DNA from: Nitrospirota bacterium
GTDB lineage: Bacteria; Nitrospirota; Thermodesulfovibrionia; Thermodesulfovibrionales; UBA9159
Direction: 5' to 3'
Length of the DNA stretch: 32,692 nt
Assembly: GCA_023382175.1 (NCBI GenBank)
Contig: JAMCQB010000041.1
Coordinates: 1-32,692 of the forward strand
The notes under the pieces were generated by a model that worked only from the letters and a program-made list of their open reading frames with translations, made no database searches and was not told the origin of the DNA. Positions 6,120 to 29,497 of this stretch are shown one piece after another. How positions within the stretch are numbered: position 1 is the first letter of the stretch; every line of letters starts with the position of its first letter. A program made the position numbers and the translations under genes.

Positions 6120-6133
6120 TCGCATGATTTGTC

Positions 6134-8134: not shown

Positions 8135-8993
8135 AAGCGGCACATGCAACCTTTGCGGAGGGAGGTCTTTTAAGCTTTTCAAGAAGGCAAAGTCACTGTA
8201 TTCGGAGGATTTCCACGATGTCATTCAATGCGCGAGATGCGGCCTGGTGTGTGTTTCTGACGTTGATCCTGAACGTGTTATTGACGTATACAGGAATGAC
8301 CCAAATAGCGTGACGTACTTTCTGGGCAGGCAAAGGAGGGATGGTGTCTTATTTAACTCCACCCTGAAAGAGCTGTCAAATTATAGAGAATTCCGGTCGG
8401 GCATGAGATTGCTGGATATCGGATGCGGGATCGGAACGTTCCTGAATATGGCAAGATCAGAAGGATGGGATGTGACCGGACTTGAGCCGAACGTGAGTGC
8501 TGCTCAGTATGCAGTGAAAACATATGGACTGAATGTGATACAGGGGACACTGAATGAAACTTCTTTCCCGGCGGAATCTTTTGATGTTGTTACAATGATT
8601 CAAACTCTGGAGCACGTACCGGACCCCATGGGGGTATTGGCAATTGCTCAAAAGATCTTGAAAAGGAACGGCTTGATTTATATTGAGGTGCCTAATCTTC
8701 ACAACATCTCTTTTCTGGCCGGTCGCTTCCTGGGTGTAAAGGACAGGGTAAACACTATGGACCCGACAGCGCATCTTTTTTATTTCACTTCCGGGACATT
8801 GAAGAAGATGGTGCAATCTTCCCATCTCGTCCCCCTGCTGCTTTATTCGGGATTCAACAAGTCAATGCTTGATATGGTGATGCGCAACTCATTTATTAAG
8901 CGCGTTTTATCGCTGCCCTACAGAGTCCTTTGTAAGATAACGAGGATCTCAAGGACCGGGCTGTCAATCCAGATGATAGGCAGAAAAGAATAA
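8115..8993 (+). CDS. Methyltransferase with N-terminal CxxC zinc-binding domain
   Basis: A 292-residue protein. The N-terminus carries CNLCGG (about residue 11) and CARCGLV (about 39), a four-Cys zinc-ribbon-like element common in C-methyltransferase-type proteins. SAM motifs follow: LLDIGCGIGTFL (about 98), VTGLEPN, and FDVVTMIQTLEHVPDP with LKRNGLIYIEVPN. The architecture resembles sugar-modifying class I methyltransferases in O-antigen loci. GTG 8115 is only 3 nt after GAAGGAG, while ATG 8127 is 15 nt after it, so the start is uncertain. The purine-rich stretch is part of the fossil GT4 reading frame. Its stop TAA shares one base with the ATG of asnB. Confidence 0.8.
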   Translation: MRNVMSESGTCNLCGGRSFKLFKKAKSLYSEDFHDVIQCARCGLVCVSDVDPERVIDVYRNDPNSVTYFLGRQRRDGVLFNSTLKELSNYREFRSGMRLLDIGCGIGTFLNMARSEGWDVTGLEPNVSAAQYAVKTYGLNVIQGTLNETSFPAESFDVVTMIQTLEHVPDPMGVLAIAQKILKRNGLIYIEVPNLHNISFLAGRFLGVKDRVNTMDPTAHLFYFTSGTLKKMVQSSHLVPLLLYSGFNKSMLDMVMRNSFIKRVLSLPYRVLCKITRISRTGLSIQMIGRKE

Positions 8994-10906: not shown

Positions 10907-12099
10907 GCAGTGAACCACGAGCTATAAGGGTCTGCGTCGTCTCTCCCCTTTATCATCCATCCCTGGGAGGACTCGGCAGACAGGCTCAGCTCCTGACTGA
11001 GCGTCTGGCAGAGGAAGGGGTAGAGGTCTTTGTGATCGCCAGGAGGATGAAAGGCATGCCCGAGGCAGTTTTCAGTCAGAAAGTGAAGGTTCACAGGGCC
11101 TGGTCCATAAAACCCTATCTCCACACCTACGAAAAGGTCACCCTCCTTAACATCCTCATTTCTCTCACCTTCTCCCTGAGTTGCGCATTCCTGCTTCTGC
11201 AAAAGAGGAAAGAGTATGAAGTCGTCCACTTCCACGGCGCCAGCCTTCCCCTTTTCTTCAATCTTCCCATCCTTAAGATCATGGGGAAAAAGGTCATCGC
11301 CAAGGTGGCAGCAGCCGGTGTCGGAACTGAGGCGGGTTCCCTTGGGGGCCGCCACCTCGGCTTGGGGAATGTTTTCATCAGGCTTTTGAAGATGGTGGAC
11401 ACCTTTGTCGCAACAACAGCAGAAATTGAGGAAGGGCTGCGGCGGGACGGTCTCGACCCTAAAAAGGTAAGAAGGATTCCCAATTTCATTGATCTCCCGG
11501 CCTTTTCCGGGGCTTCGGGGGAAGCAAAGACAGACACAAAGGCAAGAATGGGTTGCGAAAACAGATACATAGTGACCTTCAGCGGGCGGTTTATCCCCCG
11601 TAAGGGGGTCAGCTTCCTTTTGGAAGCGTGGAGGAATGTGATAAATGAAGAGCCGGATGCAAGGTTGCTTCTTCTGGGAGACGGGCCCCTCCTGGGGGAT
11701 ATGAAGAAAATGGCTACGGGGCTGGGTATTGAGGATTCCGTGGATTTTCGTGGACATGTGAATTCGGTTATGGACTACTTTCAGATGGCCGACATCTTTG
11801 TTTTACCCTCCCTTCAGGAGGGTATGCCCAATGCCCTTCTTGAGGCCATGGCATTCGGGCTTCCTGCTGTAGCTACAAAAATAGGCGGCGTTGTGGATAT
11901 CATCAGGGACGGTGAAAACGGCATCCTGGTTAGCCCCGGTGATCCGGCAGGAATGTCAGCGGCTATATTCAGGCTTCTTCGGGACCCGGCGCTGGCCCGG
12001 CGTATCTCTACCTCAGCCCTTGAAACAATTAAGAGTTCTTATAGCCTCGACCGTGTTGCCCCCCGCTATATTGAGATCTACAGGGCTCTTGCATCCTGA
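10903..12099 (+). CDS. GT4 family glycosyltransferase
   Basis: A 398-residue GT-B enzyme starting at an ATGA overlap with asnB. The N-terminal domain shows VCVVSPLYHPSLGGLGRQAQ, followed by LTERLAEEGVEVFVIA. The C-terminal domain shows VTFSGRFIPRKGVSFLLEAW, LLLLGDGPL and the complete E-x7-E motif in LQEGMPNALLEAMAFGLPAV. The tail RRISTSALETIKSSYSLDRVAPRY is typical. It is the last gene of the operon and presumably adds one sugar to the lipid-linked repeat unit in the cytoplasm. Donor and linkage are unknown. A short perfect hairpin without a T tract follows its stop. Confidence 0.88.
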   Translation: MSSEPRAIRVCVVSPLYHPSLGGLGRQAQLLTERLAEEGVEVFVIARRMKGMPEAVFSQKVKVHRAWSIKPYLHTYEKVTLLNILISLTFSLSCAFLLLQKRKEYEVVHFHGASLPLFFNLPILKIMGKKVIAKVAAAGVGTEAGSLGGRHLGLGNVFIRLLKMVDTFVATTAEIEEGLRRDGLDPKKVRRIPNFIDLPAFSGASGEAKTDTKARMGCENRYIVTFSGRFIPRKGVSFLLEAWRNVINEEPDARLLLLGDGPLLGDMKKMATGLGIEDSVDFRGHVNSVMDYFQMADIFVLPSLQEGMPNALLEAMAFGLPAVATKIGGVVDIIRDGENGILVSPGDPAGMSAAIFRLLRDPALARRISTSALETIKSSYSLDRVAPRYIEIYRALAS

Positions 12100-12554: not shown

Positions 12555-12583
12555 TTGACAACTCGTCGGTAAGTGTGTAATAT
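12555..12583 (+). promoter_or_regulatory. Sigma-70 promoter of the tetraheme cytochrome gene
   Basis: TTGACA at 12555-12560 and TAATAT at 12578-12583 are separated by exactly 17 bases, close to consensus. Initiation near 12590 would give a leader of about 135 nt. A small CCGC-TTAT-GCGG hairpin lies at 12586-12597, at the very start of the leader. Confidence 0.7.
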
Positions 12584-12650
12584 TACCGCTTATGCGGCAA
12601 TGGGACGAGAAGATTTCAGCAGCTATGGGATGTCCCGTTACACCAGGAAT

Positions 12651-12725: not shown

Positions 12726-13355
12726 ATGAAAAAAGCTTTACTTTTGGTTATAGCGATACTGCTTGTGGCAGGCGCAGCCTATGGCGCAGGGACCATCGTT
12801 GGTTCGAAGCATGACGTAAGGGGCGCAATAGCTGATGAGACCACAACCCAGGTATGCGTATTCTGCCACGTGCCTCACAATGCAGCTACCACCTGGGGAG
12901 GTCCGCTCTGGAACCATGCTAATACCTTGTCCACTTTCGGACTCTATACGAGCGCAACTCTCCAGGGCGCAACAAGCCAGCCTTCCGGTGTATCAAGGGC
13001 ATGCCTGAGCTGTCATGACGGAACAGTTGCGATCAACTCGCTCATCAATGCTCCGAAGGACGGCACTGCTGGTACCCTCACGACCATGGCGGCCGGACCT
13101 GCAAGGCTCGGTACCGACCTCACCAATGACCATCCTGTGAGCATCACTTACAGACAGGACCTGGACAGCGGTCTGAGGGCAAATGTGGGTGCAACCGTAC
13201 CCGGAACGGTCTGGACTGCACAGCTCTACGGTACGGCATCTCCGTATACAGTTGAGTGCGCAAGCTGCCATGCGGTTCATGATCCTACGAATGTACCGTT
13301 CCTGAGAATCACGAACACAGCCAGCCAGATGTGCACCACCTGTCACTTGAAATAA
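12726..13355 (+). CDS. Secreted tetraheme c-type cytochrome
   Basis: A 209-residue protein with a clear signal peptide (cleavage near AYG-AG, residue 20). It has four CxxCH heme sites at residues 44-48, 93-97, 178-182 and 203-207. Five further His (KHD 29, VPH 51, WNH 63, NDH 136, AVH 185) could supply distal ligands. The pattern CxFCHxPH, PLWN, CLSCHDG, DHPxS and CxSCHxxHDPxxxPFLR is shared with the genes at 17646 and 31804. Heme attachment in the periplasm is expected. The exact electron partner is unknown. A strong ribosome site (AAAGGGGGTG), dual promoters and a strong terminator make it a self-contained, probably highly expressed unit. Confidence 0.9.
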   Translation: MKKALLLVIAILLVAGAAYGAGTIVGSKHDVRGAIADETTTQVCVFCHVPHNAATTWGGPLWNHANTLSTFGLYTSATLQGATSQPSGVSRACLSCHDGTVAINSLINAPKDGTAGTLTTMAAGPARLGTDLTNDHPVSITYRQDLDSGLRANVGATVPGTVWTAQLYGTASPYTVECASCHAVHDPTNVPFLRITNTASQMCTTCHLK

Positions 13356-13378
13356 GTGCCGGCTGTTTTCTTTACGCA

Positions 13379-13411
13379 AAAGAAAGGAGGGGTTTTCCCC
13401 TCCTTTCTTTT
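13379..13411 (+). terminator. Strong intrinsic terminator (possibly bidirectional)
   Basis: A perfect 14-bp stem (13379-13392 with 13397-13410) closes a TTTT loop. The descending arm ends in a T-rich CTTTCTTTT and the ascending arm begins AAAGAAA, so it could act in both directions. It isolates the cytochrome gene from the following operon. Confidence 0.88.
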
Positions 13412-13470
13412 AGATGCGGAGGGCTCGCCGCATGGCGCGGAACTTGTGCTGCTCCCTTTATTGCGGGCTC

Positions 13471-13496
13471 AGGCTCAGGAATTAGGCTCAGGAATT
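13471..13496. repeat. 13-bp tandem repeat (two copies) before the porin gene
   Basis: AGGCTCAGGAATT occurs exactly twice in tandem (13471-13483, 13484-13496), preceded by a partial copy. It lies directly upstream of the proposed promoter of the porin operon. Confidence 0.8.
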
Positions 13497-13497
13497 A

Positions 13498-13526
13498 TTG
13501 TATTTTCGAACGTTTTATGGTATAAA
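13498..13526 (+). promoter_or_regulatory. Possible promoter of the porin-cytochrome operon
   Basis: TTGTAT (13498-13503) and TATAAA (13521-13526) are spaced by 17 bases, about 45 bp before the porin start. The -10 is good and the -35 is moderate. Confidence 0.45.
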
Positions 13527-13571
13527 TAGTGGCCGGAAAATGCCGGGCAATGATGAAGGAACAATGATATT

Positions 13572-15383
13572 GTGATACGGTTTGTGAGAAAACTCCCTTT
13601 CCTCACTGTTATTTCTTTTTTTTACCTGTCTGCCGCAGTTTCCCTTATTTCCCTTTGGTCCGACACTGCCGGAGCTGAATCCTACTGGCGCCGTTATGAT
13701 ACCCTGCTGAGGAATTACAACCTTTACGGCTCCATCGGGCTTACGTATCAAAAGCAGTGGTTCGAGAATGATGAGACCTTTTCATACTTTACCCAGTCAT
13801 ACAACCTTGGTCTCCGGGGCTTTGTGGTCGACCCGAGGCTTGTCTATTTCGATGTATCAGGGTATTTCACCAAAACCAACAGCAGCCCGGGGGAGGATTT
13901 CTCCCTTCTTGGCCAGAACATGAGGGTCGTCCTGCTGCAGAAACTCCCCCAGAAATGGTTGAGTTCATGGAAATACATTCCGCACCCCATCACCCTGAGG
14001 TTCTCCCACTATGCCAACAGCGCCGAGTACACGAACTACGGCATCAGCCTGAGATACGGGAAACCCTATGAATGGACGCTTCACGAACGGGAAGTCAGGC
14101 AACAGCAGGAGGCCGGCGCCAACGCAGAGAACGAGGCCAATGCAAATGCCGGCGCAAGCGCCACGGCGGCAGCCCCGAAGCAGAAGGGAACGTTCCTCGG
14201 CCTTAACTTTCCCGTCACCTACTTCGACTATGACCATTACAAGAGCACCTCAGAAGGGCAGACCAGCAGCACGAACCTTTACAGCGTCAGGTCTTTCATG
14301 CAGGGCAAGGTCTATGATTACCGGCTCTATTTTGAACACCAGAATGTGACCGGAATCTCCCCTCTCAAGAGAACCCTGGTACAGTTTGAGCCGAACTACC
14401 GGTTCTTTGATCCTGACACAAAGAGGCTCCTGGACATTTATAATGCCCTGAGATATCAGAATATCGAAGGTCAGAAGACCTATGAAGTGCACAGCAGGGT
14501 GAACCTGTATAGACCCTTTGGCTATGATACGCTGATGGGACAGGGCTCCCTGGACTACAGCAGGACCTCTGACAAGTCATCCACCACTGATGTCTTTAAT
14601 GTCACTTCCACCGTTTCGTATAACAGGGTGGTCTCGCCACGGCTGTCCTACATGCCCTTCGTAGCTGTGGGGTACGGCACGAGCGACACCACGAATTCGC
14701 ATTTCGAGCGCGTCGGCTCCAATGTCTCGGTTGACCTGTCGCGGGTCTTCAGGAACACGAGCACTGTTTTTGTCGGCGGCAGCCAGGAGGGACTTGAGTA
14801 CGGCGCCCAGACGTTTTTCATGACCAAGACAAGAATAAGCGCCTCCCTGGGCTATGCTGTTTCCTCCATTGCCCAGGATAACGGCAGGGTGCTCACCCAA
14901 AGGGCGGTGCTCAATGCCTCAGGTCCGATCATCGGCAATCTGAGCTTCAACACCTATGCCGATTTTACCCGGCGGGACGACGACTCTGATCCGGAGGACC
15001 CTTTTGTTGAGGACGCCCTCAGGGGCGCTGTCAATCTCTACTGGTACTTCTACCGGACATCGGTCACCGTCGGCGGCAGTTACTCCCAGGTGAAGAGAAG
15101 GAACACCACAACGGACAAAACAGACGTTACGACCCTTTCGGCGGCCCTCACGAGGGTGATCACGAGAAATACCCTTTTCACCCTCTACAGTTTGTGGATA
15201 AGGGATTCCCTGAAGAACAAGTCCCTTGAAATCACCCCCCGGCTCCAGTGGAGCCTGCGGCAGACAGCCATTGACGTTGAGTATAAATACCGCAGGGTGT
15301 CGCTTCTTGGGGCGCCGTCCACAACCGACCACCGGCTCACCGTGAACTTCATCAGGTACTTCTCAGCCAATTTCAGGATGTAG
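13572..15383 (+). CDS. Outer-membrane beta-barrel, putative porin of an electron conduit
   Basis: A 603-residue protein with an N-terminal signal peptide (cleavage near TAGA-ES, residue 35). Long runs of alternating polar and hydrophobic residues rich in Tyr, Thr, Ser and Phe follow, ending in RLTVNFIRYFSANFRM as expected for a barrel-terminal strand. Length and repeats suggest a large barrel of more than 20 strands, in the size range of MtrB-like porins. An Ala/Asn/Glu/Gln-rich insert (residues about 177-206) probably forms a flexible loop. It is followed at once by a periplasmic folding chaperone, NHL lipoproteins and multiheme cytochromes. I therefore infer a porin that sheathes a cytochrome wire across the outer membrane. 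No sequence match to MtrB or OmbB is claimed. The start is GTG 13572 without a strong ribosome site. ATG 13563 is out of frame. Confidence 0.78.
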   Translation: MIRFVRKLPFLTVISFFYLSAAVSLISLWSDTAGAESYWRRYDTLLRNYNLYGSIGLTYQKQWFENDETFSYFTQSYNLGLRGFVVDPRLVYFDVSGYFTKTNSSPGEDFSLLGQNMRVVLLQKLPQKWLSSWKYIPHPITLRFSHYANSAEYTNYGISLRYGKPYEWTLHEREVRQQQEAGANAENEANANAGASATAAAPKQKGTFLGLNFPVTYFDYDHYKSTSEGQTSSTNLYSVRSFMQGKVYDYRLYFEHQNVTGISPLKRTLVQFEPNYRFFDPDTKRLLDIYNALRYQNIEGQKTYEVHSRVNLYRPFGYDTLMGQGSLDYSRTSDKSSTTDVFNVTSTVSYNRVVSPRLSYMPFVAVGYGTSDTTNSHFERVGSNVSVDLSRVFRNTSTVFVGGSQEGLEYGAQTFFMTKTRISASLGYAVSSIAQDNGRVLTQRAVLNASGPIIGNLSFNTYADFTRRDDDSDPEDPFVEDALRGAVNLYWYFYRTSVTVGGSYSQVKRRNTTTDKTDVTTLSAALTRVITRNTLFTLYSLWIRDSLKNKSLEITPRLQWSLRQTAIDVEYKYRRVSLLGAPSTTDHRLTVNFIRYFSANFRM

Positions 15384-15477
15384 CGCGGTGACGGTTTCAG
15401 AAATTCATTGAGCGGTGAGCGCGTAGCTTTTGGGAATGAAGACAACTGCACATAATGGAACTATCCGAGGAGTTGAC

Positions 15478-16497
15478 ATGTTTATGACGAAAGAAAAGAC
15501 CGGAAGGGTCCGCCGGCTGCGGACCGATTATCTTCCAGACCTGCTTGTGGCTTTGGCGTTATTCCTCTCTGCTCTCCCTCTTCTTTGGGCTTCGCCTCTC
15601 TGGGCAGCAGAACCTCAGCAAACCGGCGTCGTTGCCAGGGTGAATGGCGTTTCCATAACCGAGGCCGAGCTTGAAAGGGCCATCGACACCTTTGTCCCTC
15701 CCGGAGCCTATCATGGCGGCGTGGCAGCGCAGAAAAGGGATGAATACCGAAAACAGGCCCTTGACGTCCTCATCGATAACGAACTCCTCTACCAGGAAGC
15801 AAGAGCCCGGGGTCTGGCCGTAGAAGACAAAGCCATCGATGCTGCGGTGGCAGAGACAAAAAAGAGATATAAAGACAACGCGGCCTTTAAGAGGGCCCTG
15901 AAGGCAACGGGGATCACCCTCGATGAATTCAGGAAGATCCTGAGGCGGAACGAGCTCATACGAACCGTGCTGAGGCTGGAGGTCGAAGAGAAATCGCGGT
16001 ATTCGGAAAAGGACCTTGAAGACTATTTCAGCGCCAACAGGGACAAATTCGTGAGGCCCGAGGGGTTTCGCCTCAGGCATATCCTCCTCATCATCCCCCC
16101 CACCGCCACAGACGCTGAGAAAGCGGAAATAAGGAAAAAAGCGGATGACCTCTTCAAACGGGCAAAGGCAGGGGAGGATTTTGCGGCCCTCGCATCCGCC
16201 TATTCCCAGGACGCTTATCGCATCAAGGGCGGCGACCTCGGTTTTGTCCATAAGGGGAGACTCGATCCCGTGGTAGAAGAGACCGCTTTCAAACTCGCAG
16301 TGGGTGAAGTGGGAATGGGGGAAAGCATTTACGGCTATCATATTGTGAAGCTTGAAGAGAAGAAACCGGCGGAGCAACTGAACTTCGCCGACGTCAAAGA
16401 CTCCCTCAAGAAAGAGCTCGAAGCGAAGCGCTACAGAGAGACAAAAGAGGCATTGCTGAAGGCGTTGAGGGAAAAGGCAAAAATAGAGATTTATTGA
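15478..16497 (+). CDS. Periplasmic peptidyl-prolyl cis-trans isomerase (SurA/PrsA-like, parvulin)
   Basis: The 339-residue product starts at ATG 15478 with GAGGAG 5 nt upstream. A signal peptide or anchor occupies residues about 18-44 (LLVALALFLSALPLLWAS, cleavage near WAA-EP). A SurA-type N-terminal chaperone region follows (VNGVSITEAELERAIDTFV and VLIDNELLYQEARARGL). A parvulin domain spans about 200-300: RLRHILLIIPP, FAALASAYSQD, GGDLGFVHKGRLDP, GYHIVKLEE. Such proteins help outer-membrane barrels and secreted proteins fold. Being the gene right after the barrel suggests dedication to the barrel or its cytochrome partners. The stop overlaps a TTG of the next frame. Confidence 0.88.
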   Translation: MFMTKEKTGRVRRLRTDYLPDLLVALALFLSALPLLWASPLWAAEPQQTGVVARVNGVSITEAELERAIDTFVPPGAYHGGVAAQKRDEYRKQALDVLIDNELLYQEARARGLAVEDKAIDAAVAETKKRYKDNAAFKRALKATGITLDEFRKILRRNELIRTVLRLEVEEKSRYSEKDLEDYFSANRDKFVRPEGFRLRHILLIIPPTATDAEKAEIRKKADDLFKRAKAGEDFAALASAYSQDAYRIKGGDLGFVHKGRLDPVVEETAFKLAVGEVGMGESIYGYHIVKLEEKKPAEQLNFADVKDSLKKELEAKRYRETKEALLKALREKAKIEIY

Positions 16498-16502
16498 AAA
16501 AC

Positions 16503-16611
16503 AGGTTGAGGTTAAGGTTGAGGTTAAGGAATAGCGATAAAGCCGGCGGAGATGTGACGAAAATAAAGCAATCTCTTTTTTTCTTCTTAACCTTAACCTT
16601 AGCCTTAACCT
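16503..16611 (+). repeat. Complementary GGTTAAGG / CCTTAACC arrays flanking a start codon
   Basis: The GGTTGAGGTTAAGG-type run at 16503-16529 is complementary to the CTTAACCTTAACC-type run at 16586-16611. The likely start codon (GTG 16554) lies between them. The downstream arm encodes the hydrophobic core (LTLTLALT) of the signal peptide. A transcript could fold with the translation start in the loop. Confidence 0.75.
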
Positions 16612-17609
16612 ACTCTTGTGCTCCCTCAAAAGCCTATGTTGACAAGTCGGCCATGGGTCAGATCATCTGGCCCGGGCCGCCCGAAGCCCCCCGCATCAAG
16701 TTTCTCTGGAGCCTATCCCAGATATCGACCGATCTGGAAGGAAGGAGGGGATTCCTCGACCTCCTGGCAGGCAATGTCCGCGACGATGTCACCGACCCGA
16801 AGACCTCGAACGTCCTCATGAGACCCTTTGCCCTCTTTGTTGATGCCAGGGAAAAACTCTATATTGCGGATTCAGGGGCGGGAAGGGTTACGGTGATCGA
16901 TATGAAAACCTTCGACGTGCTGAACATCCTGGATGCGGGGAAGGATGAGTTGCTCTCTCCCACAGGGGTGGCGGCGGATGGCGCGGGCCGCATCTTTGTT
17001 GCGGACTCGGCCTTGAAAAAGGTGTTCATCCTGGATGAAAAGGGCAGGTTCCTCGCTGCCTTTGAAGGCGATTTTCAACGTCCGGCCTGCATAGCCATCG
17101 ATGCGAAGACCCGGAAGGTGTACGTTTCCGATACCCTTGAACATACGATATTCATTTACTCTTCTGAAGGAAAACGTCTGGGGAGGATCGGTCGCTGGGG
17201 GTCTCAGCCGGGAGAGTTTAATTTTCCGACGCACCTCTTTGTTGATGCCGGGGGCCTTATCTATGTGACTGATGCCATGAACTTCAGGGTGCAGATTTTT
17301 AGCCCTGAGGGAAAGGTGATCGGCAGTGTCGGAAGCCTCGGTGATTCGCCGGGAAGCCTTGATAAACCAAAGGGCGTGGCAGTGGACGGGGAAGGCCATG
17401 TCTATGTAGTAGACGCCATCCGCGACACCGTCAAGATTTTCGACAGGGAGGGAAGACTGCTCCTTTTTTTTGGGGAAAAGGGGAATAACTATGGTGACTT
17501 CTGGCTTCCCTCTGGTATATTTATTGATAACAAAAATGTAATCTATGTTGCCGATACCTACAACATGCGGGTACAGGCCTTTCAATTAATAGAAGAAAGT
17601 GGAAAATAG
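16554..17609 (+). CDS. NHL-repeat (six-bladed beta-propeller) lipoprotein 1
   Basis: A 351-residue protein with a short lipoprotein-like signal peptide (MTKIKQSLFFFL, then the Leu/Thr core, ending TYSC with Cys about 22). NHL blades begin near residue 80 and include RPFALFVDAREKLYIADSG, FNFPTHLFVDAGGLIYVTDA, KPKGVAVDGEGHVYVVDA and LPSGIFIDNKNVIYVADTYN. The post-signal motif WPGPPEAPRIKFL recurs in the second NHL protein (WPLPPEEPRIKFL). NHL propellers usually bind proteins or ligands. Here I infer a scaffold for the porin-cytochrome complex, lipid-anchored in the periplasm or on the surface. GTG 16554 gives a normal signal peptide. The alternative TTG 16494 would add a repeat-encoded LRLRLRLR segment. 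Confidence 0.82.
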   Translation: MTKIKQSLFFFLTLTLALTYSCAPSKAYVDKSAMGQIIWPGPPEAPRIKFLWSLSQISTDLEGRRGFLDLLAGNVRDDVTDPKTSNVLMRPFALFVDAREKLYIADSGAGRVTVIDMKTFDVLNILDAGKDELLSPTGVAADGAGRIFVADSALKKVFILDEKGRFLAAFEGDFQRPACIAIDAKTRKVYVSDTLEHTIFIYSSEGKRLGRIGRWGSQPGEFNFPTHLFVDAGGLIYVTDAMNFRVQIFSPEGKVIGSVGSLGDSPGSLDKPKGVAVDGEGHVYVVDAIRDTVKIFDREGRLLLFFGEKGNNYGDFWLPSGIFIDNKNVIYVADTYNMRVQAFQLIEESGK

Positions 17610-17610
17610 A

Positions 17611-17749
17611 CTGAGGTTAAGGTTAAGAACAAGGGGAACAAAAAGATGGAAAGAAACGGAATAAAGAAAGTCATCTTCTCATTTTCTTACGGCTTAATGC
17701 CAAGGAAAAGAACGGTCTCAATCTTAACCTATGCCTTAACCTTAACCTT
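17611..17749 (+). repeat. Second pair of complementary GGTTAAG / CTTAACC arrays around a start codon
   Basis: GAGGTTAAGGTTAAG (within 17611-17627) is complementary to CTTAACC-type copies at 17722-17749. ATG 17646 lies between the arms. As in the preceding gene, the downstream arm encodes the signal-peptide core (LTYALTLTF). Confidence 0.7.
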
Positions 17750-18482
17750 TCTTTTCTGCGTGCTGCACGCTACACGCTGTACGCTGAATGCTGATGCAGC
17801 GGAGATCACAAAGACAAAGCATAATCTCTCTGTGAGCGGTCCCGGCTCCATAAGGGCCGCCAGCGAAACACAGGTCTGCATTTTCTGCCACACCCCTCAC
17901 CGTGCCCTGGACGCTCCCCTATGGAACCGGAGCCTGACCAACGCCACCTACACGGTTCAGTCTGCCAGCGTCTGGCGCACCCTGAAATCAACTCCGCAGA
18001 ATATCCCTGACGGAGATTCACGGCTCTGCCTGAGCTGCCATGACGGAACCATCGCCATAGGGTCCGTGGTCAACCTGGGTAGCGCGGTGACCACGAAGAG
18101 CATGCAGGCCGGCGGGCTGCTGACGGCAGAAGGCAGACTTTCTGAGGCCTCTCAGGCCTTTATAGGAACAGACCTCAGCGGACATCACCCGGTCTCCATC
18201 GGAGTGAATGATGCCCTCCTCAGTGACAAGAGCATGCAGTGCGATGACGGCGACACTTCCTGGAGAGTCTGTAACCCTCTGCCGCCCGTGAGGTTGAGAC
18301 CTACGGAAAACGCATACAAGGTCGGACCCCATACAAAGCTGGGGGTGCAGTGCACATCATGCCACGACGCCCACGATGATCCGATCCCCGGCGCCACAAA
18401 ATTTCTCCGGGCCGGCACGCCGTCCGATACGAGCCCCCTGTGCACGAAGTGTCACGTGCCTTGTTCCCAGTTATGCCCATGA
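17646..18482 (+). CDS. Tetraheme c-type cytochrome, conduit operon
   Basis: A 278-residue protein with a long N-terminus, a hydrophobic segment about residues 25-40 and probable cleavage near DAA-EI (about 52). CxxCH sites lie at residues 78-82, 128-132, 236-240 and 266-270. Additional Cys at 199, 209, 273 and 277 could form disulfides. The CIFCHTPH, PLWN, CLSCHDG and CTSCHDAHD pattern makes it a paralogue of the stand-alone cytochromes at 12726 and 31804, with an insertion between hemes 2 and 3. It probably accepts electrons in the periplasm or docks at the porin. An alternative start at ATG 17697 would give a shorter n-region. The signal-peptide C-region is itself encoded by a low-complexity repeat. 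Confidence 0.86.
   Translation: MERNGIKKVIFSFSYGLMPRKRTVSILTYALTLTFLFCVLHATRCTLNADAAEITKTKHNLSVSGPGSIRAASETQVCIFCHTPHRALDAPLWNRSLTNATYTVQSASVWRTLKSTPQNIPDGDSRLCLSCHDGTIAIGSVVNLGSAVTTKSMQAGGLLTAEGRLSEASQAFIGTDLSGHHPVSIGVNDALLSDKSMQCDDGDTSWRVCNPLPPVRLRPTENAYKVGPHTKLGVQCTSCHDAHDDPIPGATKFLRAGTPSDTSPLCTKCHVPCSQLCP
17758..17799 (+). repeat. CACGCTA/CACGCTG-type degenerate tandem repeat within a signal peptide
   Basis: Seven-base units (GCACGCT, ACACGCT, GTACGCT, GAATGCT) are repeated in tandem. They encode the end of the signal peptide (VLHATRCTLNADAA) of the tetraheme cytochrome. The 7-bp period is not a multiple of 3, so the translation is not repetitive. Confidence 0.65.
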
Positions 18483-18507
18483 GCAAGAGGTCCATAGAGG
18501 GTAATGA

Positions 18508-18675
18508 AAGATAAGGGTAAAAAGGTCAAATAGGTGAAAAAGGTAAAAAAGAAAATGGAGGATAGAAAATTGAGAACCGGAAAAATAAAAGGCTCGAAGC
18601 TGGAAAAGCCCTTTTTACCCTTTTTGACCTCTTTGACCTTCTTAACCTTCTTAATCTTTGTCTTAACTTTGACTT
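18508..18675 (+). repeat. Third pair of complementary low-complexity arrays around a start codon
   Basis: AAGGGTAAAAAGGTC and GGTGAAAAAGGTAAAAA (18514-18552) are partly complementary to CTTTTTACCCTTTTTGACC and following ACCTTCTT copies (18609-18675). GTG 18534 lies inside the first array. The second array encodes the Leu/Thr/Phe signal-peptide core (LTSLTFLTFLIFVLTLTF). The match is looser than in the two upstream genes. Confidence 0.55.
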
Positions 18676-19688
18676 TTGCCTTTGCTGTTAATGAAACGCA
18701 CCTGGACAAGGCGAAATTACCCCGGGGGTGCGCTTCCTGCCATAAAGGCCACGGCAAACGCGCAACCGTAATGCTCGAGAGCGCAAAAGATGAACTCTGC
18801 TTCAATTGCCACGGCCCGGCAAGAAAAGGAGTTCCAGGGGAGGCAAAAACAGACATCTCCACGGTCATGCTCAAGAAGTCGGTGCATCCCATCACCCAGA
18901 CGGCACAGTATCACGTGATCGGAGAGACTCTCCCCGAGATGTCTCCTGCTACCCCGAGGCACGTAAGTTGTTACGACTGCCACAATATGCATCTCTCGAC
19001 AAAAGACAAGGCTTTTAAGGGTGTCCGGGGATATTCAGGAAAGGGGGCAAAGATAAAGAGATCGGAGAATGAGTATGAGGTCTGCTATCTCTGCCATGCG
19101 GACAGCGCTAATCTTCCCTCCAAGGCGAGCAATATCGCCCCAAAATTCGACCGGAACAATGCGTCTTTTCATCCTGTTGAAGCCATGGGGAAAAACAGGT
19201 CGGTGCCGAGCCTGAGAAGCCCCCTCTCCACCAGCAGCGCCATAACGTGCTCTGATTGTCACGGGAATGACGACAAATTCGGCCCGAAGGGGCCTCATGG
19301 ATCCAATTATGCAAATCTGCTCAAGGCGAACTACACTGTGGAATCAGGGCCCGAAAGTCCTTTCGCCTATGAGCTGTGCTATGACTGCCACACCCGGAGC
19401 AGTATTTTGAATGACGACAGTTTTAAATCACATAAGAGGCACGTGCTTTACGCAAATATCCCGTGCTTCAGCTGCCACGATGCCCACGGGAGCAAGAGCT
19501 ATGACAACCTCATGAATTTCGACAAGAACAAGGTTCTGCCGAATTCCATGGGCCAGTTGCTCTATACAAAATCCATCCCCGGGAAGCCGCGGTGCTTTCT
19601 GAGCTGCCACATAGGGGCCATGAACTATGAACACAAGGTGAATGCCGGCAAATATTGCGTCAATGCCAATTGCCCTCCGGGGTGGTAA
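18534..19688 (+). CDS. Octaheme c-type cytochrome with one CX3CH site
   Basis: A 384-residue protein with a lysine-rich n-region (residues 1-25), a signal-peptide core (27-50) and probable cleavage near FAFA-VN. Seven CxxCH motifs lie at 66-70, 89-93, 146-150, 184-188, 239-243, 282-286 and 311-315. An eighth possible heme site is CFLSCH (354-359), with three residues between the cysteines. The C-terminus has two more Cys (375, 380). Many extra His (KGH, VHP, NMH, FHP, PHG, KSH, RRH-type) can serve as distal ligands. It is probably a main wire component of the conduit. The start is uncertain: GTG 18534 or ATG 18555, both without a good Shine-Dalgarno and embedded in repeats. Confidence 0.85.
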   Translation: MKKVKKKMEDRKLRTGKIKGSKLEKPFLPFLTSLTFLTFLIFVLTLTFAFAVNETHLDKAKLPRGCASCHKGHGKRATVMLESAKDELCFNCHGPARKGVPGEAKTDISTVMLKKSVHPITQTAQYHVIGETLPEMSPATPRHVSCYDCHNMHLSTKDKAFKGVRGYSGKGAKIKRSENEYEVCYLCHADSANLPSKASNIAPKFDRNNASFHPVEAMGKNRSVPSLRSPLSTSSAITCSDCHGNDDKFGPKGPHGSNYANLLKANYTVESGPESPFAYELCYDCHTRSSILNDDSFKSHKRHVLYANIPCFSCHDAHGSKSYDNLMNFDKNKVLPNSMGQLLYTKSIPGKPRCFLSCHIGAMNYEHKVNAGKYCVNANCPPGW

Positions 19689-19747
19689 GGGTCTTCCCTT
19701 CGCACGTGGATGACATTTTCGCCGGCCATAGGGTAAAATAGAACGCA

Positions 19748-20698
19748 ATGGAGAGAAAATCAACAATGATGTCCGCCGCCATTATGGAACACAGCAAGAT
19801 ATCTGTTCGACGCTTTTTTCTTTTCAGTATCCTTTCCCTGTCTTTCTCCCTGGCCGGCGGATTTTCCGCCTTTGCCGAGGAAATAAACTGCCTCATGTGC
19901 CATGAGCAGCTTGCGAAAGAAAAGGTGGTGCACCCCGCCCTTTCCATGGGTTGTCCCACATGCCATAGCGGAATCGATGCTGCGGACGTTCCCCATAAGA
20001 AAACGAACAACGTGCCGAAGGGCCTTTCATCCGACCAACCCGAACTCTGTTACGGCTGTCATGACAAGACAAAGTTCACGAAAAAGACAGTGCATGCTGC
20101 AATCGGCATGGGATGCACAGCCTGCCATAACCCCCATTCCTCGAAGAATGCAAAGCTCCTCAAGGCAGAGCCGCCGGAACTCTGCTATAACTGTCACGAC
20201 AAGAAACAGTTTGAAGGGAAAGACGTGCATCCACCCGTTGCCGGAGGGATGTGTACTTCCTGTCACAGTCCTCATTCCAGTGATGCCGGGAAACTGCTCC
20301 TCTCGGACCCCCCGGGCCTGTGCTTTAACTGCCATGACAAAGGGGAATTCAGCAGAAAGAATGTTCATATGCCCGTGGCAGGGGGCATGTGTCTGAGCTG
20401 CCATAAACCCCACGCATCGGACCATACTGCCCTTCTCATGAAAGATCCCTATTCCCTTTGCCTCGAGTGCCACGGGAATGTGAGAAAAACACCCCACGCC
20501 GTTGTCGGTTTCTCTTCTGCGGGACATCCCCTCGGGGAGCCGAAGAAAAGGAAAAAGGAAGTGGAGGACCCATTGAGGCCGGGGAAAAAGTTCTATTGCG
20601 GAAGCTGTCATAATCCGCACAGTTCGGATTCCGTGAGACTGTTCAGATATAAGGCATCGTCGCCCTTTGACCTCTGTGTTCGTTGCCACAAAATGTGA
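19748..20698 (+). CDS. Undecaheme c-type cytochrome (doubled CXXCH type)
   Basis: A 316-residue protein with a signal peptide (FFLFSILSLSFSLAGG, cleavage near AFA-EE, residue 43). It has eleven CxxCH motifs at 48, 69, 101, 123, 146, 169, 192, 215, 238, 284 and 310. The central part is a regular array of about 45-residue units, each with two hemes (PPELCYNCHDKKQF then MCTSCHSPHSSD). This is the DmsE/doubled-CXXCH architecture typical of periplasmic decahemes that enter MtrB-like porins. That makes it the best MtrA-like candidate in this locus, by architecture only. The start may be ATG 19748 or one of the ATGs at 19766/19769. A basic KKRKKEVED linker separates the last two hemes. Confidence 0.88.
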   Translation: MERKSTMMSAAIMEHSKISVRRFFLFSILSLSFSLAGGFSAFAEEINCLMCHEQLAKEKVVHPALSMGCPTCHSGIDAADVPHKKTNNVPKGLSSDQPELCYGCHDKTKFTKKTVHAAIGMGCTACHNPHSSKNAKLLKAEPPELCYNCHDKKQFEGKDVHPPVAGGMCTSCHSPHSSDAGKLLLSDPPGLCFNCHDKGEFSRKNVHMPVAGGMCLSCHKPHASDHTALLMKDPYSLCLECHGNVRKTPHAVVGFSSAGHPLGEPKKRKKEVEDPLRPGKKFYCGSCHNPHSSDSVRLFRYKASSPFDLCVRCHKM

Positions 20699-20749
20699 AA
20701 GGAGCACGTTGAGACGGGCAAAGATCGAAGTAAGGAGGAAATTGAATAG

Positions 20750-21805
20750 ATGAGAAGCGCTATCCTTTTTGGTATTGTTACGGTCCTTTTGATAGGCATC
20801 ACTGCCTGCGCACCAGCCCCGGGAAAGAGAGTATGGGACATCGTCTGGCCCCTCCCCCCGGAGGAACCGAGGATAAAATTCCTCGAGATATATCAGTCAA
20901 ATGCCGACGTTGAGGGGTCGTCACAATTTGCCAGGGCTCTTTTTGGAGAGGACGTGCCCCTCATCCTGGTAAAACCATACGGTGTGGCCGTTGACAGGGA
21001 GAGCAGGATCTGCGTGACGGACATCGGCAGGGTCTTTATCTTCGACAAAAAGAACCGGCGCGTTGATTTCATAGGCGCTGAAGCGGGCACCGGCAAACTC
21101 AGGATACCCATCGGGATTGCGACCTCCCGGGACGGAAGGATCTATGTCACTGACACGGCGTCGGACAGGGTATTTATTTACAACAGCAAGGGGAATCTTG
21201 TCGGCCTTATAGGTCAGAAAGGAGAATTCGAAGGACCGAGCGGTCTTGCCGTGGATGAAAAAAGAGGGAGACTGTATATTTCGGATGCAAAGAAGCATTT
21301 CATTAAAGTATATACGCTTGACGGGAAAGAGGTTCTTTCGACCATAGGGGAAAGAGGCGCCGAATCCGGCAAATTCAATTTTCCGACGAACCTCGCCCTT
21401 GACAGCGAAGGGAATCTCTACGTAGTCGATACGGGCAACTTCAGAGTGCAGGTCTTTAATCCTGAGGGAAAACATGTCAGGAACATAGGCTCTGTGGGTG
21501 ACAGGCCGGGCAATTTTTCACGGCCAAAGGGGATAGCCATTGATTCGGAAGATCACATCTATATCGTTGATGCTGCCTTTCAGAATTTCCAGATCTTTAA
21601 CAAGGAAGGGCAGCCGCTCCTCTTTGTCGGAGAAGGGGGAAGCCATCCGGGACAGTTTCTGCTCCCCGCAGGCATTGCCATTGACGATGAAGACAGGGTT
21701 TACGTCGTTGATCAGTTGAATGCAAGGGTGCAGGTCTTCGAATATATGGGAGAGAAATGGAAGAAACGGCAGGCAGCCGCGCCGAAGCCGGAGCAGAAGA
21801 AATAA
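20750..21805 (+). CDS. NHL-repeat (six-bladed beta-propeller) lipoprotein 2
   Basis: A 351-residue protein with a good lipobox (LLIGITAC, Cys 20) and AGGAGG 11 nt before ATG 20750. NHL blades include KPYGVAVDRESRICVTDIG, IPIGIATSRDGRIYVTDTAS, FNFPTNLALDSEGNLYVVD, RPKGIAIDSEDHIYIVDA and LPAGIAIDDEDRVYVVDQLN. It matches the first NHL lipoprotein along its whole length, including the WPxPPExPRIKFL motif after the Cys, so the two are paralogues flanking the cytochrome trio. The C-terminal tail is Lys/Ala/Pro-rich. I infer a structural or docking role in the conduit; no enzyme motif is visible. Confidence 0.86.
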   Translation: MRSAILFGIVTVLLIGITACAPAPGKRVWDIVWPLPPEEPRIKFLEIYQSNADVEGSSQFARALFGEDVPLILVKPYGVAVDRESRICVTDIGRVFIFDKKNRRVDFIGAEAGTGKLRIPIGIATSRDGRIYVTDTASDRVFIYNSKGNLVGLIGQKGEFEGPSGLAVDEKRGRLYISDAKKHFIKVYTLDGKEVLSTIGERGAESGKFNFPTNLALDSEGNLYVVDTGNFRVQVFNPEGKHVRNIGSVGDRPGNFSRPKGIAIDSEDHIYIVDAAFQNFQIFNKEGQPLLFVGEGGSHPGQFLLPAGIAIDDEDRVYVVDQLNARVQVFEYMGEKWKKRQAAAPKPEQKK

Positions 21806-21820
21806 CCAACAGTGGGCCTT

Positions 21821-22174
21821 ATGAGATGCCGCATATTCTTTAGCAGTTTCCTTATCCTGCTTTTCTGTATTGGGGGTGCGGGAGCTGAAGCTCCAAAGGA
21901 GATACACAAGGGCTGTGCCACCTGTCATACGGAGCCGGACTTCAAAGCGATAAAGGCGAAGGTGAGTGAAACCTGTCTCACGTGCCATCCTGCGAGCCTG
22001 GGGAGGGACCATTCCATAGGGGTCGTCCCAAAAATAATCCCTGAAGACCTTCCCCTGGGAGAAGGGAACAAGGTCACCTGCATCACCTGTCATGACCCGC
22101 ACGGCAAGGGCGTTGCAGCTAAGCTCTTGAGGAAGGATTTTAACAGCCTCTGCATATCCTGTCACAAGAAGTAG
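21821..22174 (+). CDS. Small secreted tetraheme c-type cytochrome
   Basis: A 117-residue protein (counted from ATG 21821) with a signal peptide ending near GAGA-EA. Four CxxCH motifs (CATCH, CLTCH, CITCH, CISCH) sit in about 85 mature residues. The two-plus-two arrangement around HDPHGKG resembles half of a doubled-CXXCH cytochrome, like the last units of the 11-heme protein. It may be a periplasmic shuttle that feeds the conduit. It closes the operon, 15 bp after the NHL gene stop. GTG 21812 is an alternative start; neither has a clear Shine-Dalgarno. The next gene converges 34 bp away. Confidence 0.85.
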   Translation: MRCRIFFSSFLILLFCIGGAGAEAPKEIHKGCATCHTEPDFKAIKAKVSETCLTCHPASLGRDHSIGVVPKIIPEDLPLGEGNKVTCITCHDPHGKGVAAKLLRKDFNSLCISCHKK

Positions 22175-22208
22175 GGGTTCCCGCTCCTTCCTTTTCAGGC
22201 ATCTCTCG

Positions 22209-22964
22209 TCAACGCAATTTTCGTCCTGCGCGGGCAAAGAGGGATGAGGGCATACCCGCCTTCTGGAGCAGGTATTTAAAGGATGTGGAAAGAACCCCGA
22301 GACCATACGTTATGCTTCTACGGAAATTGATCGAGGAGGCGTCCTCAAAATACCTGGTCGGACAGCTTATCTCTCCAATCTTGAAGCCGAAATAGACTGC
22401 CTGCGCAAGCATCTCATTGTCAAAGACGAAATCATCGGAGTTCTCCCCGAGGGGAAGGGTCTCGAGCGCCTTACGGCTGAAGGCGCGATACCCGGTATGA
22501 TATTCCGAAAGCTTGGCGCCGAAGATCAGGTTTTCGATAAGGGTAAGGAAGCGGTTCGCAACGTATTTATAGAGCGGCATCCCTCCCTTGAGGGCTTCGC
22601 CGCCGAGTATTCTCGACCCAAGAACCACGTCATAGTGGCCCGAAACGATCATGGATGCCATTGCAGTAACAAGCCGGGGAGAGTACTGGTAGTCCGGATG
22701 GACCATAACGACGATATCCGCGCCACATCCCAGCGCCTCCCGATAACAGGTTTTCTGATTTGCCCCATACCCCCTGTTCTCCCTGTGTACAACGGTCTTT
22801 ATCCCCAGTTCTCCGGCAATCCTGGTTGTGCGGTCGCTGGAAGCGTCATCAACAAGGATCACTTCATCAACATATTCGTGAGGCAATTCCTCGAAGGTCT
22901 GACGAAGCGTCTTCTCCGCATTATATGCAGGCATGACAACCACAAGCTTCTTGCCAAGGATCAT
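22209..22964 (-). CDS. GT2 glycosyltransferase, DPM1/polyprenyl-phosphate sugar synthase-like
   Basis: A 251-residue cytoplasmic GT-A enzyme with [22 protein letters not shown] (about residues 38-46), [10 protein letters not shown], a metal-binding HPDYQYSP in place of DxD, GSRILGG and [13 protein letters not shown]. This pattern matches dolichol-phosphate mannose synthase-like GT2 proteins without C-terminal membrane helices. It would transfer a hexose from a nucleotide sugar to polyprenyl phosphate. That product is the kind of donor GT-C enzymes use, and four GT-C genes precede it on the same strand. The start at 22964 has AAAGGAGA upstream; the longer frame to 22994 lies in a C-rich repeat. 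Confidence 0.86.
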
Positions 22965-22982
22965 GCGCTCTCCTTTGATGCC

Positions 22983-23052
22983 CTCCCCCCTCAAGGGGGG
23001 AGCCTATATTACCCCCCCTCCCCTGGAGGGAGAGGGTGAGGGTGAGGGGGAC
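22983..23052. repeat. C/G-rich palindromic repeats between minus-strand genes
   Basis: A perfect 8-bp stem (22983-22990 with 22995-23002, loop TCAA) is followed by CTCCC-N5-GGGAG (23018-23032) and GGTGAG copies. It resembles common intergenic hairpin repeats. There is no T tract for a terminator on the minus strand. Confidence 0.6.
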
Positions 23053-23096
23053 AATCTATGTCTATGCTATTTCGAGACCCTCAATAACATGTTTTT

Positions 23097-24632
23097 CTAG
23101 TCTAAATGTATCACCGCGTCCTTTTCAAGCTCCCGGAGAAAGTCAGAGGCTGCCTGCAGGTCGGGCTTTGTGCGCAAGGCCTTTCTTGCAAGCCTTGCTG
23201 CGTCCGCTCTCTTTCCGCTCTCCCTGTACTTCCGTGCAAGCGCAAGGTATTCACGGGAGACCTTTTCATTAATCCTCTTCATCTCACCATATTCGGCAGC
23301 CGCCTTTTCACCATCGCCCCTCTTCTGATATTCATTAAAGAGATTCCAGTGGACAGCCAGGGAGTCGGGCGCCTTTGACCTGGTGTCTTCAAACAGGGTT
23401 ATATCATTTTTCCAGACCGCATTTCTTGAAAGAGTCAAAATAAAGAAAAGCGACAGGACCGCGACATAGGAGCCGAGGGCCGGCACAGTAGTGCGGGTAA
23501 GATGAAAGGTCCTGCGGCCCTTGAAAGCCGAAACAGTCAGAATGAGCAATCCTATTACAGGGAGATAGAGGTACCGCTCCGCCATCATGGCAGCCCGTAT
23601 GGGGATGACGTTGCTCACCGGCAGTAAAGTGAGAATGAACCACCAGCTTCCCAGTAGGGGCAGCGAAAACGTCTTTCGGGAGAGAGACACCACAGTGGCA
23701 ACGATCAGTAACGCCATAAGAAAAAGAAAAATTACCGTATATGGATTTACGGGCGTCACCAGAAGAAAGATATCATATCGTGCGGACAGCGGATAAGGGA
23801 TAAAGACTAGTTTTATGTACTTGAGAACTATTGCTGTCTGCGTGAACATTGTTGTCCAGAAACTGTCTCCATAATACTCTCCACGCCCGAGATCTCCGAT
23901 AGCAAGAGTTCTTGCATAGAGATAGAGCCCGCTGAGCACGGTCAGCATCAGATAAAAGGAAAGCTTTTTGCGAAGCTCTGCAATTTGCCCTCCCTCCAGA
24001 AAAATATCTATCAGAACAACAGTCAACGGGAAGGAAATAGCCATCTCCTTTGAAAGCAGAGATAATGAATAGGCCACGACGACGCCCACGAGGTACAGTC
24101 TTCTCCGTGGGCTGTAGCGCGACTTTATGTAGAAGATCACTCCGATAAGATAAAAAAATAAAAAGAGGACATCTGCCCTTCCGGCAATATTCGCAACCGC
24201 TTCGGTGTTTACCGGATGGACTGAATAGAGCGTCGACACAAGAAACGATTGCAGAGCGCTCAAGCGAAGATGGCGCAACAAGAGAAACAACAGCAGGCAG
24301 TTCATGGAATGCACGAAAACGTTTTGAAGGTGATACCCCGACGGATTCGGACCGAACATCTTATATTCGATGGCAAACATCACCTGCCTCAACGGCCTGT
24401 ATACCTTCATATCGTAAGAAGCCTGAGTTTTGGAAGTCGTGAAAAAGGAGGGGATATTCTCCATATGGCGAATATAAGGGTTCTCCGACAAGACGTAGCG
24501 GTCATCCCACACAAAATCGTTGTGGAAAGTATTTACGTACGCGAGGAAAGGAATCGCAAGAAGCAATGAAAAGATCAGGAACCTCATCTTTGCGGAGAGC
24601 ATTCCTTCATCTGTTAACTGCATAGAGCTCAA
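23097..24632 (-). CDS. GT-C membrane glycosyltransferase, TMTC/DUF1736-like, with C-terminal TPR
   Basis: A roughly 511-residue inner-membrane protein with about ten hydrophobic segments. After the first membrane segment comes NDFVWDD (Asp43-Asp44), the position of the catalytic acidic pair in PMT-like GT-C enzymes. Later motifs are YHLQNVFVHSMN, HPVNTEAVANIAGRAD and MAERYLYLPV, all shared with the three GT-C genes upstream on this strand. The tail (about 430-505) has two weak TPR-like helix pairs. GT-C enzymes move a sugar from a polyprenyl-phosphate donor to protein or lipid at the periplasmic face. TTG 24632 has GGGGAGG 5 nt upstream but overlaps the methyltransferase end by 26 bp; ATGs at 24623, 24602 and 24587 are alternatives. 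Confidence 0.82.
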   Translation of the reverse strand: MSSMQLTDEGMLSAKMRFLIFSLLLAIPFLAYVNTFHNDFVWDDRYVLSENPYIRHMENIPSFFTTSKTQASYDMKVYRPLRQVMFAIEYKMFGPNPSGYHLQNVFVHSMNCLLLFLLLRHLRLSALQSFLVSTLYSVHPVNTEAVANIAGRADVLFLFFYLIGVIFYIKSRYSPRRRLYLVGVVVAYSLSLLSKEMAISFPLTVVLIDIFLEGGQIAELRKKLSFYLMLTVLSGLYLYARTLAIGDLGRGEYYGDSFWTTMFTQTAIVLKYIKLVFIPYPLSARYDIFLLVTPVNPYTVIFLFLMALLIVATVVSLSRKTFSLPLLGSWWFILTLLPVSNVIPIRAAMMAERYLYLPVIGLLILTVSAFKGRRTFHLTRTTVPALGSYVAVLSLFFILTLSRNAVWKNDITLFEDTRSKAPDSLAVHWNLFNEYQKRGDGEKAAAEYGEMKRINEKVSREYLALARKYRESGKRADAARLARKALRTKPDLQAASDFLRELEKDAVIHLD

Positions 24633-25572
24633 TGGTGCCTCCCCTCTTCAGTACAGAGGACTCAAAAACGGAAAGCAATAAACAGAGAGGAAGATAGAGG
24701 GGGAGCAGTCCGAAGGTCAGAATGAGATCAGAGGTCTTGAAATCCGAGAATCGTTTTCCCCCTGACGTTCGCCTCCTGAGAAGATCGTAAAAAAGGTTTC
24801 TTTCTATCCCCGACATGTTCAAGAGGGTCTGCACCCATCCAAAAGGGTTATACTCCAGATCGAACCTCCTGATGTTCACGATCTCGAAGGAATGCTTCTT
24901 CAACAGGCCGGATAACCCTTCTTCGGAAAAATGCGACAGATGATAGGGCACATCAAGATGAAACCATGCCCCTTTCCCTGCAGATGCCTGAAGGCTTGAT
25001 ATATTGGGAACTGCAACCACAAGGAGACCGCCCTTCTTTAATATCCTCCTGCATTCATTCATCATTTCCGCGGGCCTCTCAACATGTTCCAGCACATGGC
25101 TGATGGTGACAACGTCGAACTCTTCCGCGCCAAAGCCCCAGTCCGCCGGGCTTCCCGCCCTGACATCGATGCCATACGCCCCGGCAGCAGAGCGGGCCGT
25201 TTCCTCGCTGAATTCGACGCCCCTCACCTCCCATCCTCTTGTTCTCATGGTATGGAGGAAGAGCCCCCGCCCACACCCTATATCGAGGAGTCTCCCTCTT
25301 CTGACATGCCTCTCTATCCTCCGTGCTCTCATGAGTCTGGAAAGGTTGATAAAGAACTCTATGAAAGGATTGAACCTTCTTCCTCCGTCTGTTGATCGGT
25401 AATTTCCCGAAGAATACAGTTGTGCGAGTTGCTCTGATGAAGGCACGGGAAGTGTGGCGCCTATCCTGCATTCTCTGCAGAAAAAGACGTCATAGTATTT
25501 ACCATTTCTTTTTATCCCGCTCACGAGCTTCTCTTCTATTACGCTGTTGCACACCGCACAGATTTTTTTCAT
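24607..25572 (-). CDS. SAM-dependent methyltransferase with N-terminal zinc element
   Basis: A 321-residue protein starting at ATG 25572. The N-terminus has CAVC (about residue 5) and CREC (about 35), a zinc-ribbon-like pair. Then come the SAM loop LLDIGCGRGLFL (about 95), EFSEETARSA, FDVVTISHVLEHVERP and LKKGGLLVVAVPN, followed by FHLDVPYHLSHFSEEGL. A hydrophobic stretch near the end (LILTFGLLPLYLPLCLLLSVF) suggests membrane association. It has the same architecture as the methyltransferase at 8115 in the polysaccharide operon. It sits between GT-C genes, so it may methylate the lipid-linked or transferred sugar; the substrate is unknown. Confidence 0.84.
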   Translation of the reverse strand: MKKICAVCNSVIEEKLVSGIKRNGKYYDVFFCRECRIGATLPVPSSEQLAQLYSSGNYRSTDGGRRFNPFIEFFINLSRLMRARRIERHVRRGRLLDIGCGRGLFLHTMRTRGWEVRGVEFSEETARSAAGAYGIDVRAGSPADWGFGAEEFDVVTISHVLEHVERPAEMMNECRRILKKGGLLVVAVPNISSLQASAGKGAWFHLDVPYHLSHFSEEGLSGLLKKHSFEIVNIRRFDLEYNPFGWVQTLLNMSGIERNLFYDLLRRRTSGGKRFSDFKTSDLILTFGLLPLYLPLCLLLSVFESSVLKRGGTIELYAVNR

Positions 25573-25588
25573 AGCGCTCCCCAGGGCT

Positions 25589-29463: not shown

Positions 29464-29497
29464 TTTTTATACCCTGCTGCTCCAGGATTGCGCGTCC

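Follow-up and report, generated by a model that had tools for sequence, protein, structure and literature searches.

A core operon consisting of a six-bladed propeller protein, a peptidyl-prolyl isomerase (PPIase), and two large multiheme cytochromes has been described (Skennerton et al., 2017; PMC5539420), the OetABI conduit has been named together with nanowire cytochromes (Murali et al., 2023; PMC10553843), and two NHL genes have been reported within cytochrome clusters of Desulfovibrio ferrophilus (PMC9769857). In filaments of the Geobacter cytochrome OmcE, which are reported to be glycosylated, a heme in each subunit has as ligand a His residue from the neighboring subunit (PMC9473688). 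Here we analyze 32,692 nucleotides of DNA from a Nitrospirota bacterium (positions 1 to 32,692 of contig JAMCQB010000041.1, assembly GCA_023382175.1; hereafter 'the window'), the forward strand of which, from 12726 to 22174, carries nine genes, in the order: OmcE-type tetraheme cytochrome, outer-membrane barrel, PpiC/SurA-type PPIase, first NHL lipoprotein, tetraheme cytochrome T4b, octaheme cytochrome H8, 11-heme cytochrome H11, second NHL lipoprotein, and small tetraheme cytochrome T4c. We propose, with moderate confidence, that the locus encodes an OmcE-type cytochrome nanowire and an outer-membrane conduit that feeds the nanowire, and that T4b and H8 constitute an adapter that joins the two.

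The locus resembles each described system in part. The Geobacter OmcE locus (GSU0612-0618) has, as here, an OmcE-type subunit gene, an adjacent NHL gene, multiheme cytochrome genes, and a barrel gene side by side; however, T4b and H8 of Geobacter are encoded at a different locus, next to type II secretion genes, the Geobacter locus contains cytochrome biogenesis genes that are absent here, and the barrels are only remotely related. As for MtrCAB of Shewanella, the window locus has a large barrel with a remote profile and fold signal toward MtrB and an 11-heme protein that resembles MtrA, but it has NHL and PPIase genes and has no MtrC/OmcA-type 10-heme lipoprotein. The D. ferrophilus clusters DFE_0448-0451 and DFE_0461-0465 are alike in gene content, being cytochrome clusters with NHL proteins (PMC9769857), but porin-cytochrome genes are reported not to be apparent there. 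The SEEP-SRB1 operon and OetABI, by their published description, share with this locus a six-bladed propeller, a PPIase, a barrel, multiheme cytochromes, and linked filament cytochromes. This shared mix, together with the presence in the genome of dsrA and a second dsr-type gene (dsrA/dsrB-like), could suggest that the locus is a divergent form of the OetABI conduit of sulfate reducers that partner anaerobic methanotrophic archaea (ANME). We consider this very improbable: the cytochromes there have 16 and 26 hemes, whereas those here have 4, 8, 11, and 4, and no lipoprotein cytochrome is present here. The filament gene there is of OmcS/OmcX type rather than OmcE type.

The first gene of the locus points to a filament. 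Its product matches the Geobacter OmcE filament subunit (PDB 7TFS) over its full length, from residue 7 to residue 209 and to the end of the chain (E 4.5e-34), and matches a second cytochrome structure, 9YUQ (E 8.1e-31). It carries four CXXCH motifs and four conserved distal His residues. The four non-CXXCH His residues, which are possible distal ligands, show 97-100% conservation across the sequences compared (121 filament-type, 25 T4b, 36 fused, and 7 Geobacter sequences), and every T4b-type sequence has them. The protein is predicted to form filaments. A search of the genome with a query of this type found only three OmcE-like genes: this gene, T4b, and a convergent gene near the far end of the window.

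T4b and H8 are separate proteins here, but about 38 loci, spread over many phyla, encode them as a single protein. The fused protein has 11 CXXCH motifs and usually one CX3CH motif near its C-terminus; its N-terminal half is matched by the T4b profile, and its C-terminal half is matched by the H8 profile. In a tree of OmcE-like domains, the domains of the fused proteins, separate T4b, and Geobacter T4b form one clade against filament-type OmcE (support 100/99). Because gene context served to label the fused members, and proximity to H8 the Geobacter members, the clade does not simply reflect circular labeling. At alignment positions 24 and 192, members of this clade have His-Asn and Gln-Cys in place of the His-Asp and Glu-Cys that predominate in filament subunits. 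All 28 H8 homologues compared retain the CX3CH motif and each of the seven CXXCH motifs. (An AlphaFold2 model of H8 made from the 28 sequences was discarded, having a mean predicted local distance difference test score [pLDDT] of 54.5 and no hemes.) We conclude that T4b and H8 appear to be two halves of one 12-heme protein. The protein appears to be undescribed: we found no description of a split or fused OmcE-like 12-heme protein in the open-access papers searched. The inter-subunit His ligation of OmcE filaments offers a way for a paralogue such as T4b to cap one end of a filament, and a T4b that has all eight possible ligands, that is tied to an octaheme cytochrome, and that is encoded with a barrel fits a conduit-to-filament end-piece.

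The barrel is proposed to belong to the conduit. An AlphaFold2 model of the barrel made with 33 homologues has about 28 strands and a pLDDT of 88. A Foldseek search with this model ranked MtrB (6r2q_B) third (E 2.6e-9; template-modeling score about 0.4) in a list that also contained TonB receptors and LptD, and Foldseek alone is for this reason not decisive. Profile-profile comparison with hhalign, using LptD as negative control, gave 1.4e-27 and 3.6e-32 against barrels that lie beside OmcE-like genes in many phyla, 4e-13 against the barrel beside Geobacter OmcE, E 2.2e-8 (probability 95%) against MtrB/PioB, and 0.008 (probability 5%) against LptD. A check of the barrel against MtrB, proposed together with an initial annotation of the window, therefore yields a remote similarity in the profile comparison and none to the family models, the MtrB/PioB models PF11854 and TIGR03509 being unmatched by the window barrel and 32 homologues. 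A search of PDB sequences with the barrel profile gave low-complexity chance hits only. H11 matches MtrA (6r2q_A; E 1.4e-14), has a heme motif about every 23 residues, and scores 116 bits against TIGR03508, under the cut-off of 192. An MtrAB-like core of barrel and H11 is plausible, but remote in its similarity.

We infer the topology, the cytochrome lodged in the barrel, and the direction of electron flow to be as follows. T4c would act as periplasmic carrier at the start of the path and would pass electrons to H11, as an MtrA-like wire, and/or to H8, inside or at the MtrB-like barrel. H11/H8 would pass electrons to T4b, with T4b and H8 working as one 12-heme adapter, and T4b would pass them to an extracellular filament of OmcE-type subunits, the first of which T4b would seat, thereby extending the heme stack. 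The SurA-like protein may aid in folding or exporting the cytochromes as well as the barrel. The two NHL lipoproteins may serve as outer-membrane assembly scaffolds. The initial annotation had suggested that the NHL proteins could replace an extracellular decaheme cytochrome, as surface caps or scaffolds; the extracellular partner is more likely to be the OmcE-type filament encoded next door.

Gene order in the phylum ties the barrel to H8. Among 396 genomes of the phylum, 46 have barrel homologues and 81 have H8 matches. The loci around the barrel have the recurring order barrel, PPIase, NHL, T4b, H8, often with H11, NHL, and OmcE nearby. The presence/absence table pairs the barrel with H8 in 40 of the 46 genomes, among which related genomes are not independent. 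This comparison is not circular, whereas that of OmcE with H8 is partly so, the OmcE profile also matching T4b. With the search reversed, starting from H8 at 18 further loci (from genomes having the fused form or from those in which a nearby barrel had escaped BLAST), the barrel was present at 17; the one locus without it is at a contig end. The synteny check thus finds barrel and cytochromes kept together in relatives and, with the remote similarity to MtrB/PioB and the lack of similarity to LptD, makes the porin-cytochrome conduit of the initial annotation a fair reading. In many of these relatives (L042-L081, e.g. L045 1926-4580 and L050), a protein of about 900 aa similar to NHL proteins, followed by a multiheme cytochrome, lies downstream of the module. 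The H11 homologues of the same loci have mostly odd numbers of hemes (9, 11, 13, 15, 17, 21), as though pairs of hemes had been gained or lost.

To extend the comparison beyond the phylum, we used an OmcE profile headed by the Geobacter protein to scan contigs of genomes. OmcE was the sole criterion of selection, and the 80 named loci obtained come from Geobacter, Gammaproteobacteria, Nitrospirota, Bacteroidota, KSB1, Verrucomicrobia, Acidobacteria, and other groups. Of the 76 loci that have a clear OmcE-like gene, 69, Geobacter included, have an NHL gene on the same strand at a distance of no more than 1.5 kb, and a barrel of these families is present in 60 of the 80. The Geobacter omcE locus reads small 3-heme cytochrome, two open reading frames (ORFs), 10-heme cytochrome, 8-heme cytochrome, NHL, OmcE, barrel; the two ORFs occupy the place of the published cytochrome-biogenesis pair, and the order agrees with that published for GSU0612-0618. 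The composition of the window locus, which had been called unfamiliar and without a named counterpart, consequently has precedents, both in the published operons and clusters described above and in this NHL-OmcE association. The PPIase, which had been called dedicated, is not a fixed part: in other phyla, many clusters lack its gene or have it in a different place. The same results bear on whether the locus encodes a stand-alone porin-cytochrome conduit, unlinked to a filament and with NHL proteins as surface caps, as had been suggested. The co-conservation of barrel and multiheme cytochromes, and the lipoprotein nature of the NHL proteins, would be expected of such a conduit, but an OmcE-type gene lies immediately upstream, an OmcE paralogue lies inside the operon, and the association of NHL with OmcE genes extends across phyla; we regard such a conduit as improbable. 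It is possible, although here we are more tentative than for the window locus itself, that many phyla share a 12-heme end-piece, consisting of an OmcE paralogue and a CX3CH octaheme cytochrome, that links an OmcE-type filament to an MtrAB-like barrel conduit.

The main rival reading is that the locus encodes a station for nanowire export or assembly, in which the filament is secreted or assembled by the barrel, the SurA-like protein, and the NHL proteins, and T4b-H8, itself secreted, initiates the filament or forms its tip. In Geobacteraceae, the T4b-H8 pair and an NHL gene (with a PPIase gene in two loci) adjoin a type II secretion operon, identified by Pfam matches to GspF, GspE, and secretin in L172 and by the same order of ORFs in L173, L174, L176, and L178, with no barrel nearby. 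This arrangement favors an export or assembly station for part of the set; a PPIase and NHL scaffolds would suit assembly, and a domain paralogous to OmcE could serve to begin a filament or to cap it, at one end or the other. On the other hand, the remotely MtrB-like barrel and the MtrA-like H11 in the operon point to electron transfer through the barrel, and a fixed 8-heme part would be costly in a mere cap. We judge an export or assembly station unlikely for the window locus, though less so than either alternative considered above. In the same Geobacteraceae loci (L172 324-13782 of Geobacter sp. AOG1; also L173, L174, L176, and L178), the NHL-T4b-H8 set also lies beside Lon/ClpX, and the secretin has a cohesin domain.

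Several points weigh against a nanowire joined by T4b-H8 to a barrel conduit. The Geobacteraceae set indicates that a tie between T4b-H8 and a barrel is not obligatory. The likeness of the barrel to MtrB is remote, and Pfam and NCBIfam gave no credible family shared by the window barrel and its 32 homologues, with six hits to TrAA12. Filament formation by the OmcE-type protein is a prediction, and the physiological role of cytochrome filaments is reported to be disputed even in Geobacter (PMC11077965).

The coordinates of the locus are given in Table 1. The gene content set out in the initial annotation (barrel, PpiC/SurA protein, two paralogous NHL lipoproteins, and cytochromes with 4, 8, 11, and 4 hemes, tightly spaced on one strand) is as claimed, and the interval there given, 13379-22174, holds the genes listed; its start, however, falls at a terminator-like hairpin and excludes the OmcE-type gene, which is key to the locus. 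From the barrel gene through the last cytochrome gene, gaps range from -4 to 59 bp. The OmcE-type gene, which has a promoter-like site of its own, is separated from the barrel gene by 216 bp containing the hairpin. The 27 heme sites of the operon comprise 26 CXXCH motifs and the one CX3CH of H8; observed CXXCH counts (4, 7, 11, and 4 for T4b, H8, H11, and T4c) compare with residue-shuffle means of 0.03-0.10 and a maximum of 2. The cytochrome translations of the window all lack an obvious lipobox. Over 348 residues, the two NHL proteins share 41% identity, and they are two of only four NHL proteins in the whole genome.

Table 1. Features of the window, with position, strand, and basis of assignment.
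Feature	Position	Strand	Basis or remark
Promoter-like site of the OmcE-type gene	12555-12584	+	Gene's own; terminator-like hairpin downstream
OmcE-type tetraheme cytochrome, 209 aa, proposed filament subunit	12726-13355	+	PDB 7TFS and 9YUQ matches
Terminator-like hairpin between OmcE-type and barrel genes	13386-13406	+	7 pairs then T-rich tail; consensus match only
Beta barrel, 603 aa, proposed MtrB-like sheath	13572-15383	+	AlphaFold2, Foldseek, profile comparison
PpiC/SurA-type PPIase, 355 aa	15430-16497	+	PF13616 3e-21, SurA_N_3 3e-17
NHL six-bladed propeller lipoprotein 1	16494-17609	+	PF01436 2e-29; lipobox-type Cys in most orthologues
T4b, OmcE-paralogous tetraheme, N-terminal half of proposed adapter	17646-18482	+	7TFS E 1.3e-23
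H8, octaheme (7 CXXCH and 1 CX3CH), C-terminal half of proposed adapter	18534-19688	+	Conserved sites; beside barrel in relatives
H11, 11-heme repeat cytochrome, MtrA/DmsE-like	19748-20698	+	PDB 6r2q_A match
NHL six-bladed propeller lipoprotein 2	20750-21805	+	PF01436 6e-37; LIGITAC lipobox
T4c, small tetraheme, cytochrome c3/c7-like, possible periplasmic carrier	21812-22174	+	PF14537 1.4e-5, PF09699 2.2e-12
Terminator-like hairpin closing the operon	22173-22188	+	Consensus match only
Second OmcE-like cytochrome, 5 CXXCH, convergent	31804-32499	-	46% identical to the OmcE-type protein

Genes for a GT2 glycosyltransferase, a methyltransferase, and four multi-transmembrane proteins, three with Pfam TPR repeats, adjoin the cytochrome genes on the reverse strand (22209-31597), and homologues of the multi-transmembrane proteins follow OmcE and barrel in two Geobacter loci (L083 and L089). 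A role of these genes in glycosylation is possible, with the link being rare in other phyla; homologues of the TMTC-like/GT2 glycosylation genes occur in only 6 of the 80 named loci and 6 of 40 loci of the phylum, which makes it less likely that such genes are a constant component. Upstream (693-12099) lie transposase-like ORFs and a polysaccharide cluster (flippase-like protein, methyltransferases, asparagine synthetase, and glycosyltransferases), named by reading the translations. Elsewhere in the genome, contig C154 (L216 5885-8943) carries a second barrel, of 682 aa and with a weak MtrB_PioB match, beside a 9-heme protein that begins with a lipobox-like sequence; the pair is a candidate for a separate porin-cytochrome locus. 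Contig C17 (L221) carries another NHL-multiheme locus, with a 20-heme protein of 1300 aa, a 5-heme OmcE-like protein, an NHL protein of 921 aa, and an ORF of 890 aa in a row.

The dsr genes suggest that the host is likely to be a sulfate reducer or sulfur disproportionator that carries out extracellular electron exchange. For the question of how nanowires are connected to the cell (Murali et al., 2023), T4b-H8 would be a concrete, widely conserved, and genetically testable candidate junction. If the proposal is correct, the 12-heme end-piece would explain both the electrical and the physical anchoring of cytochrome nanowires to the cell, and the combination of OmcE, NHL protein, barrel, and 12-heme protein would be a recognizable module that could be used to spot likely nanowire producers in metagenomes.

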